Shown piece by piece: positions 28,043 to 36,214 of a stretch of DNA of 64,000 nt. Under the pieces are notes generated by a model. That model made no database searches. It was not told the origin of the DNA and worked only from the letters and a program-made list of their open reading frames with translations. The DNA is from Bacteroidota bacterium (GTDB lineage Bacteria > Bacteroidota > Ignavibacteria > Ignavibacteriales > Ignavibacteriaceae). Position 1 is the first letter of the stretch; each line of letters starts with the position of its first letter. A program made the position numbers and the translations under genes. The DNA is taken from NCBI GenBank assembly GCA_021824145.1, contig JAKALM010000002.1, positions 186,001 to 250,000 of the forward strand, in the 5' to 3' direction.

Positions 28043-28399
28043 TTACAGAATTTTTGATATTTTATTACTCTTATCAACCAAAACAATTCTTGGTTTATAA
28101 TTTTTTGCTTCTTCTTCATTCATTTGAGAATATGCAATAATTATAACTTCATCGCCAACAGCGCCTAATCGAGCTGCCGGACCATTTAAACAAATCATAC
28201 CGCTGTTAGACGGTCCTTCAATAGTATAAGTTTCAAGCCTGCTTCCATTATTTACGTTTACAACTTGAACTTTTTCAAAAGGTAAAATATTTGCTTTATC
28301 CAACAATTCTTTGTCTATTGTAATACTTCCTTCATAATAAAGCTCCGACATAGTTACAGTTGCCCGATGAATTTTAGAACGGAACATTTCTCTTGTCAT
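28043..28399 (-). CDS. panD: Aspartate 1-decarboxylase precursor
   Basis: 118 residues from ATG 28397-28399, which has GGAG five bases upstream. This start places the self-cleavage site YEGS exactly at Gly24-Ser25, the canonical position. Cleavage there generates the pyruvoyl group that decarboxylates aspartate to beta-alanine for pantothenate. Other family residues: [40 protein letters not shown]. Upstream in-frame codons could add 14 residues but are not conserved. It is divergent from the trp operon, with a 164-base shared upstream region. No other pan gene is nearby. Confidence 0.95.
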
Positions 28400-28525
28400 T
28401 AATTCTCCACAAATTTTGCGGCGAAATATAATTAGAACCATTTTAAACTTTCAAGGTTTAATATTTTCAGATTATATTTTTTTGTAACCTCTTTTACAAA
28501 TCAGCATTATTTTTCATATTGCCTC

Positions 28526-28555
28526 TTGACATTTCAAAATTCTGATTTATATTTG
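28526..28555 (+). promoter_or_regulatory. Promoter of the trp operon
   Basis: A perfect TTGACA (28526-28531) is followed after 16 bases by TATATTTG (28548-28555). The latter reads both as a sigma70-like TATATT and as the Bacteroidota -7 box TAnnTTTG. Transcription would start near 28560, only a few bases before the leader-peptide ATG at 28564. This assignment is by consensus only. Confidence 0.65.
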
Positions 28556-28563
28556 CATCCAAT

Positions 28564-28662
28564 ATGAAAAATATTTCTGGGACATATTATAACACTAATA
28601 AAAACTTGAACCAAAATTCTTGGTGGTGGTGGTATAGTATGTATTATAGTATGACCCAGTGA
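28564..28662 (+). CDS. trpL: trp operon leader peptide (four consecutive Trp codons)
   Basis: A 32-codon frame, ATG 28564 to TGA 28660-28662. Codons 20-23 (28621-28632) are TGG TGG TGG TGG, followed by Tyr, and five Tyr codons occur in the whole peptide (two before the Trp run, three after); there are no Phe codons. Such a Trp cluster directly upstream of trpE and of a terminator is the signature of ribosome-mediated attenuation. There is no Shine-Dalgarno sequence before the ATG, and the predicted RNA start is about 4 bases upstream, so the peptide may be translated as a leaderless message. Confidence 0.9.
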   Translation: MKNISGTYYNTNKNLNQNSWWWWYSMYYSMTQ

Positions 28663-28723
28663 TTTTGAGATAAATAATTTTTACTAACCAACCCTTCTCA
28701 GTCAAACTGGGAAGGGTTTTTTT
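28655..28723 (+). promoter_or_regulatory. trp transcription attenuator (antiterminator/terminator switch)
   Basis: Terminator: AACCCTTCTCAG (28690-28701) pairs with CTGGGAAGGGTT (28707-28718) across a TCAAA loop, 12 pairs with one T-G wobble, followed by T's to 28723. Antiterminator: 28655-28670 (CCCAGTGATTTTGAGA) can pair with 28696-28711 (TCTCAGTCAAACTGGG): 6 pairs, a 4x4 internal loop, then 6 pairs including one wobble. This disrupts both terminator arms. The 28655 strand overlaps the leader stop codon. A ribosome stalled at the Trp codons leaves it free; a ribosome reaching the stop covers it and lets the terminator form. Confidence 0.88.
28690..28723 (+). terminator. Rho-independent terminator of the trp attenuator
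   Basis: A 12-pair hairpin (28690-28701 with 28707-28718) with a five-base loop, directly followed by a run of T's (28717-28723). It lies 16 bases before the trpE ATG, so it can only serve as a conditional terminator for the operon. Confidence 0.9.
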
Positions 28724-28739
28724 GTTTTATGGCGGTAAT

Positions 28740-30215
28740 ATGAATTTCAATTTATTTAAAGAACTTGCAAATGAATATAATTTGATACCAGTTTTTGAAA
28801 TTATAACTGCAGATTTACTAACTCCTGTTTTGGCTTACTTAAAAATTCGAGAAAATGGAAAACAAAATTTTTTGCTTGAGTCTGTAGAAGGAACTTCAAG
28901 TATGGCTCGTTATTCGTTCATAGGAAAGAATCCTATCAAAATTATTCAAAATAAAAGATTTGAAATTTCAGAAAAATCTAATAACAATTATAAGTCATTT
29001 AATGAATCAATTTTTGAACATATACGAAATGAGTTGAAACAATTTAAGCAGCCCAAAATAGATGGGCTGCCGGATTTTACGGGAGGCATTGTAGGATATT
29101 TAGGTTATGAAAATATTTCACTTGTTGAAAAAGTAATTGAGTTTAATTCAGAAAGTTTCAACAATCCAGATTCAATCTTTGGGATTTATAATACTATTCT
29201 CGCCTTCGATCATTATAAACACCAGATAATTCTTATTACAAATGTTAAAGTAGATAATAAAACCAACCTTGAACTAGCTTATAATTCTGCAAAAAATATT
29301 TTAGCGTCGTTAAGAGCAGAATTAAAAAAACCAATTGAATATAATTCCGATTTTGATCTTGATGGAGAGATTAACGAATATTTTGAAACTGAAAATTTGT
29401 ATAATCAAATTGAGTCAGGAAAACAAAACATAATTGAAGGGGATATTTTTCAAATTGTTCTTTCAAAAAGATTTTCTTCCAAATACAAAGGCGATTTACT
29501 AAATGTCTATCGCGCATTACGAATCATAAATCCTTCTCCATACATGTACTTTTTAGAATTTGAAAACGATTTTTCAATTATCGGAACTTCACCGGAAGAT
29601 TTATTAAAAGTAAAAAATAGAAAAACGCAATTGCTTCCAATTGCCGGGACACGAAGACGAGGAAATTCTTTAGAAGAAGATAAAGATTTAGAGCAAGATT
29701 TGATCAAAGATCCAAAAGAAAAGGCTGAACATACAATGCTTGTTGATCTCGGAAGAAACGATCTTGGAAGAGTTTGTAAATATGGCTCTGTAAAAGTTAC
29801 CGAAAACATGAAAATTCAAAAATATTCTCATGTAATGCATATGGTTTCTAAAATTGAGGGTGAACTTGCTGATGATAAAGACTCAATCGATGCTTTGATG
29901 TCATGCTTCCCTGCTGGTACAGTAACTGGCGCGCCAAAGATTCGCGCAATTCAACTAATTGATAAATATGAAAAACAAGAACGAAATATTTACGCTGGTG
30001 CTGTTGGCTATTTTGATTTTTCAGGAAATCTTGATATGTGCATTGCGATAAGAACTCTGTTTGCAAAAAAAGATATTGTTTATTGGCAAGCAGGCGCAGG
30101 AATTGTTGCTGACAGCATACCTGAATTAGAAGCAAAAGAGATTAGAAATAAATCTGCAGCAATGGTTAACGCTTTAAAATTTGCGGAGGTAATTGATGAA
30201 AATATTGGTAATTGA
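28740..30215 (+). CDS. trpE: Anthranilate synthase component I
   Basis: 491 residues from ATG 28740 (MNFNLFKELANEYN). The feedback-site motif LLESVEGTSSMARYSFIG shows the LLES element that binds tryptophan in regulated enzymes. Catalytic chorismate-binding domain: LPIAGTRRRG, HTMLVDLGRNDLGRV, PAGTVTGAPKIRAIQLI and YAGAVGYFDFSG. With TrpG it converts chorismate and glutamine to anthranilate. Longer readings begin at a TTG at 28722 inside the terminator's T-run and are unlikely. The end overlaps trpG by 20 bases. Confidence 0.97.
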   Translation: MNFNLFKELANEYNLIPVFEIITADLLTPVLAYLKIRENGKQNFLLESVEGTSSMARYSFIGKNPIKIIQNKRFEISEKSNNNYKSFNESIFEHIRNELKQFKQPKIDGLPDFTGGIVGYLGYENISLVEKVIEFNSESFNNPDSIFGIYNTILAFDHYKHQIILITNVKVDNKTNLELAYNSAKNILASLRAELKKPIEYNSDFDLDGEINEYFETENLYNQIESGKQNIIEGDIFQIVLSKRFSSKYKGDLLNVYRALRIINPSPYMYFLEFENDFSIIGTSPEDLLKVKNRKTQLLPIAGTRRRGNSLEEDKDLEQDLIKDPKEKAEHTMLVDLGRNDLGRVCKYGSVKVTENMKIQKYSHVMHMVSKIEGELADDKDSIDALMSCFPAGTVTGAPKIRAIQLIDKYEKQERNIYAGAVGYFDFSGNLDMCIAIRTLFAKKDIVYWQAGAGIVADSIPELEAKEIRNKSAAMVNALKFAEVIDENIGN

Positions 30216-30762
30216 TAATTATGATTCATTCACTTACAACTTAGTACAACTCTTAGGTAAGTTGGATTGTAAACTTGTGGTAAAGAGAAATGATGAAGTA
30301 AATGAAAATAAAATTAATGAAATAAATCCTAATAAAATTTTAATATCTCCAGGTCCTGGACGGCCTGAAGCTTCAAATGCTTCAATAACTGCTTTTGCAA
30401 AATTTAGTAAAAAAATTCCAATTCTTGGAGTTTGTCTTGGTCATCAAACGATGGGTTATGTATTTGGAGGAACAATAATTAAAGCGCCAATTTTAATGCA
30501 TGGTAAAACTTCTCTTATAAAACATGACGGAAAAACAATCTTCAAAAATATTCAACAAAGTTTTACAGCAACAAGATATCATTCATTAATAATTGAAAAG
30601 AGCTCTCTTCCATCTTCACTTGAAATATCGGCAGAGTCAGAAGATGGTTGTATCATGGGAATTCGCCATAAAGAATTTCCGGTTGAAGGAATTCAATTTC
30701 ATCCAGAATCTTATTTGACTAGTGAAGGAATAAACATAATAAAAAATTGGTTAGCATCATGA
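30196..30762 (+). CDS. trpG: Anthranilate synthase component II (glutamine amidotransferase)
   Basis: 188 residues. ATG 30196 has GGAGGT five bases upstream. Class I amidotransferase: oxyanion ISPGPGRPEAS, nucleophile Cys in ILGVCLGHQTMGYVFGG, catalytic His-Glu in IQFHPESYLTSEG. It supplies ammonia from glutamine to TrpE. As in many bacteria it may also serve para-aminobenzoate synthesis (as PabA), since no separate pabA is visible here; that is inference. It overlaps trpE by 20 bases and trpD by ATGA. Confidence 0.96.
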   Translation: MKILVIDNYDSFTYNLVQLLGKLDCKLVVKRNDEVNENKINEINPNKILISPGPGRPEASNASITAFAKFSKKIPILGVCLGHQTMGYVFGGTIIKAPILMHGKTSLIKHDGKTIFKNIQQSFTATRYHSLIIEKSSLPSSLEISAESEDGCIMGIRHKEFPVEGIQFHPESYLTSEGINIIKNWLAS

Positions 30763-31793
30763 TAAAAGAATATTTAGAAAAAATTATCAATAAAGAAGAC
30801 TTATCATTTAGTGAATCTTTCTCTGCAATGAATGAAATAATGAATGGTGAAGTTAACAACTCTCAGCTTGCAGGGTTTTTAATTGCACTCAAATCAAAAG
30901 GAGAAAAACCGGCTGAAGTTGCTGGCTTTGCAAAATCGATGCAAGAAAAAAGTATTAAAATCAATTGTGAAGATGAAAATGCAATAGATGTTTGCGGAAC
31001 CGGCGGTGATAATTCTGGAAGTTTTAATATTTCCACGGCTGCCGCATTTGTAGTTGCTGGCGCAGGAGTAAAAGTTGCTAAACATGGGAATAGGTCTATT
31101 TCAAGCAAAAGTGGCAGTGCAGATGTTCTGCAATCGCTTGGGGTAAATATTAATCTTTCTCAAAAACAATCTGAAGAAGCACTTAACAAAATTGGAATTA
31201 CATTTCTATTTGCACCGCTTTATCATCCTGCAATGAAATACGCTTCCACAGTTAGAAAAGAACTTGGAATGAAAACAGTTTTCAATATGCTAGGGCCTTT
31301 AACAAACCCTGCTAGAGTTAAGAAACAATTAATAGGCACTTTTAATTTGAAAGCAGCAAAAACCATGTCCGAAGCTGCAAAATATCTTGAACTCAAAAAA
31401 GTATGCTTTATCTGTGGAAACGATAAATATGATGAAATTTTTCTTGGCGATTTGACAGAAGTAAATGAGTATAATCAAGGAAAAGAAATTACATCATATA
31501 CATTATCGAATAAATCATTTAATTATCCGCTAATTCATCAAAATGATATTAAAGGTGACACACCTGAAGTAAATGCTCAAATTATTCTTGAAATATTTAA
31601 TAATAAAAAGAGAAATGGTGCATTTCATACTGTTGCAGCAAATGCAGCCTTGGCTCTTTATGCTGCGGATTATTCAAATGACTTAAATGAGTGCATTAAG
31701 GCAGCTGAAGATTCTATTAAAAGTGGTGCAGCTTTAAATAAATTATTTAAGCTGAAAGAATTTAGTTCTTCGTTTGTTAATTATATTTTATAA
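30759..31793 (+). CDS. trpD: Anthranilate phosphoribosyltransferase
   Basis: 344 residues from ATG 30759, which overlaps the trpG stop as ATGA. Motifs: DVCGTGGDNSGSFNISTAAA (PRPP/Mg loop GTGGD), KHGNRSISSKSGSADVLQSL (HGNR, KSGSAD), and FNMLGPLTNPARVKKQLIG, all characteristic. It joins anthranilate to PRPP. A separate TrpD, not fused to TrpG, is the ordinary Bacteroidota arrangement. It is a cytoplasmic dimer in known homologues. Confidence 0.97.
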   Translation: MIKEYLEKIINKEDLSFSESFSAMNEIMNGEVNNSQLAGFLIALKSKGEKPAEVAGFAKSMQEKSIKINCEDENAIDVCGTGGDNSGSFNISTAAAFVVAGAGVKVAKHGNRSISSKSGSADVLQSLGVNINLSQKQSEEALNKIGITFLFAPLYHPAMKYASTVRKELGMKTVFNMLGPLTNPARVKKQLIGTFNLKAAKTMSEAAKYLELKKVCFICGNDKYDEIFLGDLTEVNEYNQGKEITSYTLSNKSFNYPLIHQNDIKGDTPEVNAQIILEIFNNKKRNGAFHTVAANAALALYAADYSNDLNECIKAAEDSIKSGAALNKLFKLKEFSSSFVNYIL

Positions 31794-31812
31794 AATTAAA
31801 CTTTGGATACAT

Positions 31813-32607
31813 TTGAATTTCTTAAATAAAATAATAGATAAAAAAAGAATTGAAGTATTACTTTTGAAGAAAAAATATTCATTTGCTTCTTTTGAAGCCA
31901 TGCCTTTTTTCTCAGAAAAATGTTTAAGCTTTAGTTATGAAGTGAAATCAAATGAAAGCATATCAATTATTGCCGAGATAAAAAAAGCCAGCCCTTCAAA
32001 GGGATTGATAAGAGAAAATTTTGATCACATTAGTTTGGCAAAAATTTATTTTCAGCAAATAGTTAATGCCGTTTCAATTCTTACCGATAAAGATTTTTTT
32101 CAAGGTGATATTAAATTCTTAAATGATATTGCACAAATTAAAGAAGTTCCATTGCTTAGAAAAGATTTTATCATTGATGAAATACAAATTTATGAAGCAA
32201 AAGCATATGGCGCAGATATGATATTGCTGATCTGTGAAGCACTTTCAAAAAATCAGATAAAAGAATTCACTATTCTTGCGAACCATCTTGGGATGGAAGT
32301 ACTTTTAGAACTTCATTCAATTGAGCAGCTTGATAAAATTAATTTTTCAATAAATAAATTTATAGGTATAAATAATCGAAATTTAATTGATTTCTCTGTC
32401 AACCTATTAACAACACAAATTATTTCAAAATACTTACCTGACGATATTGTTCTAGTTTCGGAAAGTGGGATAAATAAAAAAGAAGATATTGCTTTTTTAA
32501 AAAAATCCAGCGTCAATGCAATTTTAGTTGGCGAACATTTAATGCGTTCCGATGATATAGAATTAAAATTATCAGAACTCAAAAGCTGGTGCATGAATGA
32601 AAATTAA
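31813..32607 (+). CDS. trpC: Indole-3-glycerol-phosphate synthase
   Basis: 264 residues from TTG 31813 (MNFLNKIIDKKRIEV), which matches the usual TrpC N-terminus and has GGA five bases before it. An in-frame start at 31774 would overlap trpD but adds a 13-residue leader that is not conserved. Beta-alpha barrel residues: IAEIKKASPSKGLI (catalytic Glu and Lys), VPLLRKDFIID (Lys), IGINNRNLIDF, LVSESGINKKEDI and AILVGEHLM. It closes the indole ring. The last codons overlap trpF by 11 bases. Confidence 0.95.
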   Translation: MNFLNKIIDKKRIEVLLLKKKYSFASFEAMPFFSEKCLSFSYEVKSNESISIIAEIKKASPSKGLIRENFDHISLAKIYFQQIVNAVSILTDKDFFQGDIKFLNDIAQIKEVPLLRKDFIIDEIQIYEAKAYGADMILLICEALSKNQIKEFTILANHLGMEVLLELHSIEQLDKINFSINKFIGINNRNLIDFSVNLLTTQIISKYLPDDIVLVSESGINKKEDIAFLKKSSVNAILVGEHLMRSDDIELKLSELKSWCMNEN

Positions 32608-33217
32608 AGTTTGCGGAATTACTAATCTTAATGATGCTTTGATGTGCGAAAAGTTTGAGGCTGATGCACTTGGCTTTGTTTTTTATAAAAAAAGCAAAAG
32701 ATATATTGAACCAGACAAAGCAAAAGAAATTATAAACAGTCTTTCTCCTTTTACATTGAAAGTAGGCGTATTTGTTAATGAGACAGCAGAGTTTGTGAAT
32801 AAAATTTCTGAAAAACTAAAAATTAATTTAGCACAACTGCATGGAAATGAAGCTCCAGAAATTTCTAATAAAATAATTATTCCGGTTATTAAAAGTTTTA
32901 GAGTAGAAAACAATTTTAATTTTTCATCTTTATCTGAATATGAAAATGTTTATTGTTTATTGGATTCGTTTTCAAGAAATGAATTTGGCGGAACTGGGAA
33001 AAAATTCAATTGGCAAATAATTCCAGATAGCCTAAAAAATAAAATTATTTTAGCTGGCGGGATATCAGAAAATAATATTGAAGAAATATATAGAAATATT
33101 AATCCTATTGCGGTCGATATATCATCCTCACTTGAAAGTAAACCTGGTAAAAAAGATGAAGAAAAAACAAAAAATTTTTTTATAAAGTTTAATTCATTGA
33201 AAGAAAAATTATGTTAA
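32597..33217 (+). CDS. trpF: Phosphoribosylanthranilate isomerase
   Basis: 206 residues. The barrel starts KIKVCGITNLNDALM with the catalytic Cys, the acid-base Asp lies in YCLLDSFSRNEFGGTGKKFN, and phosphate is held by IILAGGISENNI and AVDISSSLESKPGKKD. It performs the Amadori rearrangement between the TrpD and TrpC steps. ATG 32597 overlaps trpC by 11 bases; the stop overlaps the aroF ATG by seven bases. It is a separate protein, not fused to TrpC. Confidence 0.96.
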   Translation: MKIKVCGITNLNDALMCEKFEADALGFVFYKKSKRYIEPDKAKEIINSLSPFTLKVGVFVNETAEFVNKISEKLKINLAQLHGNEAPEISNKIIIPVIKSFRVENNFNFSSLSEYENVYCLLDSFSRNEFGGTGKKFNWQIIPDSLKNKIILAGGISENNIEEIYRNINPIAVDISSSLESKPGKKDEEKTKNFFIKFNSLKEKLC

Positions 33218-34245
33218 TAATAATGAAGCTCGATACACCGAGAGATTCCATTGAAAAAGTAAAAAATAAAATATCCGAAAGGAACTGTATCCCTCATGAA
33301 ATTCCTGGTGCAAGTAAACTTGGAATTGGAATAACCGGCCCAACCAATCTCTTAATAGAAGAAGAATTTCAAACTATGGATTGTGTAGAGGAAGTTATTC
33401 GAGTAACAAAACCTTATAAACTTGTAAGCCGCGAGATGAAAAATGAAGACACAATAATTGAGATAAACAATTTAAAAATTGGCGGGAAACAATTGTCAAT
33501 AATCGCCGGTCCGTGTTCCGTTGAAAGTAGACAGCAATTATTTGATATTGCAGGTGAGTTGAAAGAGTTGGGAATTAAATTTCTGAGAGCAGGCGCTTAT
33601 AAACCTCGATCAAGCCCTTATTCTTTTCAAGGACTAAAAGAAAAAGGGATTGAATTTCTTTTGGATGTAAAAAAAGAATTTAATATGATGATTGTAACTG
33701 AAGCAAAAGACACTAAGTCGCTTCCATTAATATCTGAAGTTGCGGACATTATTCAAATTGGTGCACGTAATATGCAAAATTTTTCTCTGCTAGAAGAAGT
33801 TGGACAATTAAAAAATATAGTTTTATTAAAACGAGGATTAGCAGCAACAATTGAAGAATTATTAATGAGTGCTGAGTATATATTATCCCAAGGAAATTTT
33901 AATGTAATACTTTGTGAAAGAGGGATCAGAACATTTGAAACTATGACTAGAAATACATTAGACTTAAACGCCATTCCCATAATTAAAAAGCAATCTCATT
34001 TGCCCATTATAGTCGATCCATCTCATGGAATTGGAATTTGGGATAAAGTACATCCAATGGCAATGGCAGCAATTGCATGTGGTGCAGATGGTTTGATGAT
34101 TGAAGTCCATAATCATCCTGACAAAGCTTTGTCAGATGGTTACCAATCATTAACACCGAAGAATTTTAAAATACTTTTAGAAAAAATTGAACAATTGGCA
34201 CCAATTGTCGATAGAAAGATTGCGAGTTATGCAAGTGTTGGATAA
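33211..34245 (+). CDS. aroF: 3-deoxy-7-phosphoheptulonate (DAHP) synthase, with N-terminal ferredoxin-like regulatory domain
   Basis: 344 residues. The first about 75 residues ([20 protein letters not shown] onward) form the small ferredoxin-like domain of the type I-beta, Thermotoga-style enzymes, where it mediates feedback inhibition by Tyr or Phe. The barrel shows [58 protein letters not shown] and [11 protein letters not shown]. It condenses PEP with erythrose 4-phosphate, the first step of the shikimate pathway. Its place between trpF and trpB, overlapping both, puts pathway entry under trp control. Confidence 0.95.
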
Positions 34246-35428
34246 ATATAATTTACCTGATTTAAAAGGTCATTTTGGTAAATACGGCGGCAAATATGTT
34301 CCCGAAACTTTAATTACTCCATTAAAAGAATTAGAAGAAATATATTTCCAATTATCTAAAGAAAAAAATTTCTTAGATGAATTGGAAAATCTTAATAAGG
34401 AATATACAGGCCGCCCTACTCCTCTTACCTTTGCTGAAGGTTTAACTAAATATTTTGGTGGTGCAAAAATCTATTTGAAGCGCGAAGATCTTTGCCATAC
34501 CGGTGCACATAAAATTAATAATGCATTAGGACAAATTCTTCTTGCAAAAAAACTTGGTAAAACTCGCATTATAGCTGAAACCGGAGCTGGGCAACATGGC
34601 GTTGCAACTGCAACAGTTTGTGCAAAATTCGGATTAAAGTGTTTTATTTATATGGGTGAAGTAGATATAGAAAGACAAAGTTTAAATGTATTTAGAATGA
34701 AACTTCTTGGCGCTGAGGTAATTCCAGTTTCATCAGGCAGTAAAACTTTAAAGGATGCTACTAACGAGGCAATTAGAGATTGGGTAACAAATGTAAAAGA
34801 TACTCATTACATAATTGGCTCTGTTGTTGGGCCGCATCCCTATCCAATGATCGTACGAGAATTTCAATCTATTATTGGTAAAGAAACCAAAGTCCAAATT
34901 CAAAATGCTGAAGGAAGATTACCTAATTATATTGTTGCATGCGTTGGTGGCGGAAGCAATGCTATTGGAATTTTTTATCCATTTATTAATTCCAATGTAA
35001 AACTTATCGGCGTAGAAGCTGCTGGTTATGGAATTAACACAAATAAGCATTGTGCAACTTTAACTCTTGGACGAGAAGGAATTTTTCAAGGAATGAAGTC
35101 TTATCTTCTTCAAACTGATGAAGGACAAGTTTCCGAAGTTCATTCAATTTCTGCCGGATTAGATTATCCCGGTGTTGGACCAGAGCACAGTTATTTTAAA
35201 GATGAAGTTATTGCAGATTATTTTTCTGTCACTGACGATGAAGCTATATCCGCCACTGAATTATTATCTAAAACTGAAGGAATAATTCCCGCACTTGAAT
35301 CTGCACACGCTATTGCCTTTTTAGATTATCTTATGCCTAAAACTAAAAATGGTGAAATAGTAATTGTAAATATTAGCGGAAGAGGCGACAAAGATTTGAA
35401 TACAATAAAAGATAAATTGGGTTATTGA
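34229..35428 (+). CDS. trpB: Tryptophan synthase beta chain
   Basis: 399 residues from ATG 34229, which overlaps the aroF end by 17 bases. PLP-dependent fold: the PLP lysine lies in [20 protein letters not shown], the phosphate loop is [11 protein letters not shown], and the catalytic Glu is in [16 protein letters not shown]. The N-terminal [19 protein letters not shown] is canonical TrpB1. It combines indole with serine and pairs with TrpA through the indole tunnel. Earlier in-frame codons would extend it 14 residues without conservation. Confidence 0.97.
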
Positions 35429-36214
35429 ATGATTAATATCGCAAATTATATTTCAAACAAAAATAGTAAAGGTGAAAAAGTTCTTTCTGTTTTTTTAACT
35501 TCAGGATTTCCAGATAAAAACAATTTTGTAGAACTTGCATTAAAAATTTTAGATGCTGGTGCTGATATGCTTGAAATTGGATTCCCTTTCAGCGACCCTT
35601 TAGCCGATGGGCCAATTATTCAACATTCATCCCAAATTGCTCTTGAAAATGGAATAAACATTCAGAAAACTTTTAATTTCATTGAGGATATAAGAAAACA
35701 CACAGATAAACCATTGATTATGATGGGATACGCGAACCCTGTTTTATCTTTCGGAACAAAAAGGTTCGCTGAAACGGCAAAAAATACTGGCGTAAATGGT
35801 GTAATCATTCCAGATATTCCAATAGAAGAATATGAAAATTTCTTTAATGAAGAATTTAGTAATTTAGATACTATCCTACTTGTTACGCCTACAACTTCCA
35901 ATGATAGAATAAAATTGATTGATGAAAAAAGCAGTGGTTTTGTTTATTGTGTATCAGTAAGCGGAACAACAGGACTAAAACATCAAAACAAATTTACAAG
36001 TGTTGAATTTATAAAACGGACCTATTCAGTAATAAAAAAAAATAAAACTCTTGTAGGATTTGGGATTTCAAATGAAGAAGATGCAAAAACATTTGCGCCA
36101 TTTTGTGATGGAATAATCGTCGGAAGTGCTGTAATTAGTTCTTTGATGAATGATGATAAAGGTAATTCAAAAACTTTGAAGTTAATTAAGAAATTGAAGG
36201 GAACAATAATTTGA
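35429..36214 (+). CDS. trpA: Tryptophan synthase alpha chain
   Basis: 261 residues. Barrel residues: MLEIGFPFSDPLADGPIIQH holds the catalytic Glu and Asp regions, then VNGVIIPDIPIEEYENFF, LLVTPTTSNDRI, YCVSVSGTTGLK and VGFGISNEEDAKTF. It cleaves indole-3-glycerol phosphate to indole. Its ATG follows the trpB stop with no gap. It is the last gene of the operon; I see no strong terminator hairpin in the 262 bases before the next gene. Confidence 0.97.
   Translation: MINIANYISNKNSKGEKVLSVFLTSGFPDKNNFVELALKILDAGADMLEIGFPFSDPLADGPIIQHSSQIALENGINIQKTFNFIEDIRKHTDKPLIMMGYANPVLSFGTKRFAETAKNTGVNGVIIPDIPIEEYENFFNEEFSNLDTILLVTPTTSNDRIKLIDEKSSGFVYCVSVSGTTGLKHQNKFTSVEFIKRTYSVIKKNKTLVGFGISNEEDAKTFAPFCDGIIVGSAVISSLMNDDKGNSKTLKLIKKLKGTII

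Follow-up and report, generated by a model that had tools for sequence, protein, structure and literature searches.

A probable leader-peptide attenuator of the trp operon in Ignavibacteriales with a predicted near-leaderless start

Introduction

How is transcription of the tryptophan biosynthesis operon controlled in Ignavibacteria? The question is raised by a 64,000-nt stretch of DNA from a bacterium of the family Ignavibacteriaceae (assembly GCA_021824145.1, contig JAKALM010000002.1, positions 186,001-250,000), hereafter the window, in which a short open reading frame (ORF) with consecutive Trp codons stands in front of the trp genes. A comparative study of 2004 reportedly predicted attenuators in Bacteroidetes/Chlorobi. 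As of 2010, leader-peptide attenuation had been shown only in Proteobacteria and Actinobacteria before a Firmicutes case described by the same authors, ermC aside (PMC2965389). No description of a trp attenuator in Ignavibacteria was found in the open-access literature searched. Our analysis points, with a probability of about 0.93, to transcription attenuation by a ribosome that translates a leader peptide with Trp codons.

Results

Leader ORF and operon layout

The features of the locus are listed in Table 1. The initial annotation described a 32-codon leader with four consecutive TGG codons, and the sequence bears this out: the ORF translates as MKNISGTYYNTNKNLNQNSWWWWYSMYYSMTQ followed by a stop codon, and the presence of the leader in front of the trp operon is confirmed. 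The listed TTG start of trpE (28722) falls inside the terminator tail. The fold of the leader RNA has a z-score of -3.88, matched by none of 200 shuffles. One terminator-like site was found at the leader, compared with a mean of 0.1 in shuffles; it spans 28690-28718 and has a loop of 3 nt. Its T-run is as first described, while its stem has 13 pairs by our count instead of the 12 reported.

Table 1. Features of the trp leader region and operon (positions in the window)
Feature	Position	Strand	Remarks
Promoter (predicted)	28526..28555	+	TTGACA 28526-28531; -7 element TATATTTG 28548-28555; predicted +1 ~28560
Leader ORF (trpL-like)	28564..28662	+	32 codons; predicted 5' UTR ~4 nt
Region 1 (anti-antiterminator)	28577..28589	+	able to pair with 28647-28659
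ACATAT element	28582..28587	+	ATAT at offset 20 from A of ATG
Trp codons (putative sensor)	28621..28632	+	TGG x4 in tandem; conserved in relatives
Region 2, antiterminator left arm	28655..28670	+	includes leader stop codon 28660-28662
Region 3, terminator 5' arm	28690..28702	+	
Region 4, terminator 3' arm and T-run	28706..28723	+	3' arm 28706-28718; T-run 28717-28723
trpE	28740..30215	+	ATG at 28740; TIGR00564 539.5 bits, cut-off 517.7
trpG, trpD, trpC, trpF, DAHP synthase, trpB, trpA (order as given)	30193..36214	+	

Conservation in relatives

Of 59 genomes searched for TrpE, 44 had a match at 50% identity or more. One of them (G002), with trpE cut at the contig end, was dropped, and 43 loci, the window and 42 relatives, were compared; leader starts of three (L022, L031 and L043) were assigned by hand. 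In all 43 loci trpE is preceded by a short ORF (12-45 codons) containing two or more Trp codons; 39 of these ORFs encode WW (the exceptions being L018, L033, L037 and L041). Every locus also has a hairpin in front of a T-run, with energies between -14.8 and -24.3 kcal/mol. On the opposite strand of the same DNA such an ORF occurred in 0/43 cases, and pieces of hisG and ilvB loci yielded one in 1/43 and WW in none.

A second collection comprised 42 loci from Bacteroidetes, Ignavibacteriales or Ignavibacteria metagenome-assembled genomes (MAGs), Melioribacter, Stygiobacter electus and one Actinomycetota MAG. All except the Actinomycetota record (41/42) have a Trp-codon leader ORF; the leader start used for L055 is probably wrong. 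For 23 of these 41 the leader is not identical to any of the original 43; in this held-out set WW was found in 22 loci, a terminator below -12 kcal/mol in 22, and both in 21. All these trpE locus sets are linked by common descent.

Two explanations that would make the leader irrelevant can be weighed here. First, the ORF might be a chance one lying next to the terminator of an upstream gene, as T-runs are common in AT-rich DNA. However, the upstream ORF (28043-28441) lies on the opposite strand, both controls are nearly empty, and leader and terminator are conserved and covary (see below); we regard a chance ORF as extremely improbable. Second, Trp could be sensed by another device, the short ORF being incidental: T-box, TRAP and riboswitch devices govern trp genes in other phyla. 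Against this, the leader gave no Rfam match at or above a gathering score, and Trp-codon leaders are kept in the relatives while other leader letters differ, so that such a device is very unlikely. The Rfam Trp_leader family (RF00513) was itself rejected as a detector of the attenuator: 20 of 21 genomes have matches at E <= 1, but none of the 21 has one over the gathering cut-off, the window leader gave no match, and among the matches listed for the genome of the window none lies at the trp leader.

Terminator and antiterminator

In the 43-row alignment 94.9% of the terminator cells are paired. Covariation and Trp-codon conservation in relatives had been proposed as a check of the attenuator, and both were found, with at least two Trp codons in all rows and 9 of the 13 terminator pairs changed on both sides.

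The alternative helix (28655-28670 with 28696-28711) claimed in the initial annotation to overlap the leader stop codon is present: it has 6+6 pairs around a 4x4 internal loop and a free energy of -17.8 kcal/mol, and 0/200 shuffles gave an equally good one. The further claim that it breaks both terminator arms is right for the window; in the relatives as a group its 5'-arm part is weaker. Pairing of region 2 with the terminator loop and 3' arm involves 83.6% of cells against 44.3% in the best slid control, with 32 double-change cells, whereas pairing with the 5' arm involves 67.1% against 58.3%. The number of antiterminator pairs with a double change is not above shuffles (53/500 reach the same number), nor are further pair types with the 5' arm (443/500). 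Free duplexes computed for the 43 rows have more pairs to the loop and 3' arm than to the 5' arm in 37 rows, equal numbers in five and fewer in one; the antiterminator duplex beat 95% of its shuffles in 31 rows and failed to do so in 12. Judged from the alignment, terminator and antiterminator both covary, and the antiterminator mainly captures the terminator loop and 3' arm.

For region 1 with region 2, a helix beyond those of the initial annotation, 57.3% of cells are paired in fixed columns (38.4% in the best slid control), and two of five covariation measures lie within shuffles (105/500 and 130/500). Because a fixed-column test may understate partners that shift, free duplexes were added, and these beat 95% of shuffles in 25/43 rows. 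The putative 1:2 pairing appears to be supported within the genus.

Switch behavior in a masking model

The RNA of the 43 loci was folded with a ribosome mask extending 12 nt past the codon occupied, a length of our own choice that agrees with reported ribosome coverage of up to 12 nt past a stop codon (PMC4833913), and with nucleotides of the hairpin hidden in the polymerase. With 7 nt hidden, a ribosome at the first Trp codon gave the antiterminator in 38 loci, the terminator in four and neither in one; a ribosome at the stop codon gave the terminator in 37, the antiterminator in three and neither in three; without a ribosome the corresponding numbers were 27 terminators, 14 antiterminators and two loci with neither. 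Hiding 5 nt shifted the outcomes to 24 antiterminators and 19 terminators under stalling, the terminator in 43/43 at the stop codon, and 39 terminators and four antiterminators (the window included) without a ribosome. Under stalling with 3 nt hidden the antiterminator formed in 6/43 and the terminator in 37/43, and with none of the hairpin hidden the terminator won in 41/43 (antiterminator in 2/43). Since the exposed terminator wins despite stalling, the choice between the two structures must be made before the polymerase has released all of the 3' arm; in this model the leader acts as a switch only with the hairpin partly inside the polymerase.

Promoter and predicted near-leaderless start

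The putative promoter TTGACA-16-TATATT, not mentioned in the initial annotation, scores 11 of 12 letters and is the best of seven promoter-like matches within 28400-28800 (mean in shuffles, 2.9). The extended form of TATATT, TATATTTG, fits the Bacteroidota -7 consensus; in F. johnsoniae this element is TAHHTTTG with G at -5 (PMC6847099). We infer that the F. johnsoniae sigma-factor preference applies to Ignavibacteriales, in which case the position of TATATTTG and the G-at--5 rule place +1 at 28560 and leave a 5' UTR of 4 nt. The initial annotation described neither this near-leaderless start nor the similar leaders of other operons (see below).

The strict TAHHTTTG element was found within 30 nt upstream of the leader ATG in 25/43 loci, compared with 0/43 in each of three control windows, and in 14/23 held-out loci. 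The predicted 5' UTR is 0-8 nt in these 25 loci, the other 18 being without a prediction. TTGAC or TTGAT lies farther upstream in 39/43, and a looser -7 element sits 20-22 nt from the ATG in 2 of 34 rows. No SD-like motif was found at positions -20 to -1 of the leader ATG in any of the 43 loci. The trp transcript would start, and its translation begin, almost at the leader ATG. Leaderless mRNAs make up 5.5% in F. psychrophilum (PMC9723704), and 5' UTRs shorter than 10 nt 3.7% in B. thetaiotaomicron (PMC7366714).

Similar leaders at other operons

A search with a trp-trained model (R1, E <= 0.01) gave matches in 74/294 genomes of the class and 49/296 of the phylum. From its further matches 40 places were fetched, of which 32 read as leaders, a weak one (L171) among them; the rejected L149, L150, L156, L161, L162, L168, L170 and L173 resemble chance terminators. 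The genes at L137, L138, L142, L147, L165 and L169 were confirmed by NCBIfam above the curated cut-off, and the remaining operon gene names come from reading the translations.

Two such places lie in the genome of the window. At one (L137, G000:C4:104100-106500) a Cys-rich leader, MKTEKRNITLKLTVTCCCHSSFKLCWKDTI, and a terminator are followed by cysK. At the other (L138, G000:C30:176150-178600) a Met/Cys leader, MINENLNIAIKIELMAMCLCCMMMFSSSKKDTV, with a terminator lies upstream of a SAM-I riboswitch (RF00162, 76.1 bits), which is followed by a second terminator-like hairpin and metY (O-acetylhomoserine sulfhydrylase); leader and riboswitch may possibly form a two-input gate. Among relatives, a Trp leader and a terminator-like hairpin precede a TrpB-like gene at L145, L147, L148 and L175, each with the run WWWW, and at L176 with WRWWW. 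A pair of tandem Met-codon leaders, each followed by a terminator-like hairpin, precedes a metY-like gene at L146, L151 and L153. At L165 and L174, which belong to a different family of the class, DAHP synthase is preceded by a Phe/Tyr-rich leader (YFYF) and a terminator-like hairpin; a Trp leader stands before trpE in a different class-level group of the phylum (L169), and a relative has a His leader (L172).

Other loci were scanned by pattern. A His leader was found upstream of hisG in 12/19 loci and not in the remaining seven, one of which (L195) has its gene cut at the contig start; as the hisG pattern requires a promoter-like match near the ATG, the promoter proximity of these leaders is by construction. 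The genome of the window gave no hisG match, and none of the 24 ilvB loci scanned had a leader by pattern. SAM-riboswitch loci over the cut-off numbered 23 in 41 genomes, and 20 were examined; L221, L222 and L237, missed by the core pattern, are outside these 20, and L242 is below the cut-off. In 15 of the 20 the riboswitch is preceded by a Met/Cys leader and a terminator; in the other five the filter found no leader.

An ATAT element at a fixed offset from the leader ATG

Leaders for different amino acids share ATAT at a fixed offset from the A of ATG, a feature absent from the initial annotation. It lies at offset 19 or 20 in 36/43 trpE leaders and 19/23 held-out ones, compared with 1/54 of the mechanically listed window ORFs of at least 120 codons, and at offset 19 in 7/12 His leaders and 14/15 Met/Cys leaders (at 25 in the remaining one), both groups having been found without the trp-trained model. 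The 31 leaders taken from matches of that model, L171 excluded, are a biased sample for ATAT. E. coli trpL has no ATAT within its first 60 nt.

Polymerase pausing and conservation of the peptide were considered as causes of ATAT and rejected. In the 34 of 43 rows having both elements the standard deviation of its distance is 0.72 to the ATG and 3.2 to the promoter; hence ATAT is anchored to the ATG, which speaks against pausing. The reading frame differs, being ACA TAT in most Trp leaders and AAT ATH in most Met/Cys and His leaders, which speaks against a conserved peptide. The first Tyr codon within codons 4-10 is TAT in 37/37 leaders, preceded by ACA in 30/37.

These codons bear on a further alternative, namely an attenuator with a second role, in trans, for the terminated leader RNA and the peptide, like that of rnTrpL and peTrpL in S. 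meliloti, where an attenuator leader likewise starting at the ATG yields a trans-acting RNA and peptide (PMC7298713). The peptides considered here, 20-32 residues long, would be compatible with such a role, but they vary widely except in the Trp run and at codons 7-8, and at those two codons the preference for TAT and ACA looks like a constraint on the RNA. Additional action in trans is therefore unlikely, if clearly less so than a different sensing device.

Discussion

As far as comparison between genomes can tell, the leader, its Trp codons, the terminator and the antiterminator are established parts of the probable trp attenuator, which would respond to Trp-tRNA as follows. Because transcription is predicted to begin some 4 nt upstream of the leader ATG, the ribosome would load onto the very 5' end of the emerging RNA. 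When Trp-tRNA is scarce, it would stall at the four UGG codons and leave region 2 free to take the terminator loop and 3' arm as they exit from RNA polymerase (and, in the window, some of the 5' arm too), allowing read-through into trpE. When Trp-tRNA is plentiful, the ribosome would reach the stop codon and cover region 2, and the terminator would form. Without translation, region 1 may pair with region 2, termination being the predicted outcome in most relatives.

For Ignavibacteriales the locus offers a complete, covariation-supported anatomy of a trp attenuator. It also suggests that attenuation in this order works with a 5' UTR of hardly any length; in the phylum, few mRNAs are leaderless. 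For the lineage as a whole we propose, tentatively and with less than even confidence, one near-leaderless attenuator chassis serving several amino acids, in which an AUG-anchored AUAU (+19/+20) would help to load or hold the ribosome at the 5'-terminal AUG, and in which the metY leader and SAM-I riboswitch would act in series as a two-input gate reading Met/Cys-tRNA charging and then SAM. ATAT could be a cheap handle on how the ribosome gets placed early enough on a near-leaderless RNA, and a SAM riboswitch preceded by a Met/Cys leader would lend itself naturally to two-input control. No description of a SAM riboswitch coupled in series to a leader-peptide attenuator was found in the open-access literature searched.

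Several known systems invite comparison. In mycobacteria, polycysteine leaders are leaderless. The textbook antiterminator of the E. coli trp attenuator is the 2:3 pairing. E. coli trpL resembles the present leader in its Trp codons within a short ORF, its alternative antiterminator and terminator, and the coverage of region 2 by a ribosome at the stop codon. It differs in its length of 14 residues as opposed to 32, in the predicted near-leaderless start here, and in that the covarying antiterminator here involves the loop and 3' arm; a simple duplex computed on the E. coli sequence gives five pairs per arm, so the duplex yardstick alone cannot separate the two geometries. The S. meliloti trpL (rnTrpL) is likewise a Trp attenuator, with an RNA that begins at its leader ATG (PMC7298713), but it encodes 14 residues and belongs to Alphaproteobacteria; the likeness is one of description. 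In the C. glutamicum ilvBNC leader, according to the title of a reference in PMC11857589, the attenuator peptide is made without a ribosome binding site, as may be the case here, while that system concerns branched-chain amino acids in Actinobacteria. In Bacteroidetes, F. psychrophilum gave 'strong clues' of leader-peptide attenuation before amino-acid operons (PMC9723704), a likeness again of description. This kind of attenuator is thus already known, whereas neither the near-leaderless chassis with ATAT nor the SAM pairing was found in the open-access literature searched. Within the known kind, the trp attenuator of Ignavibacteriales is a lineage-wide variant.
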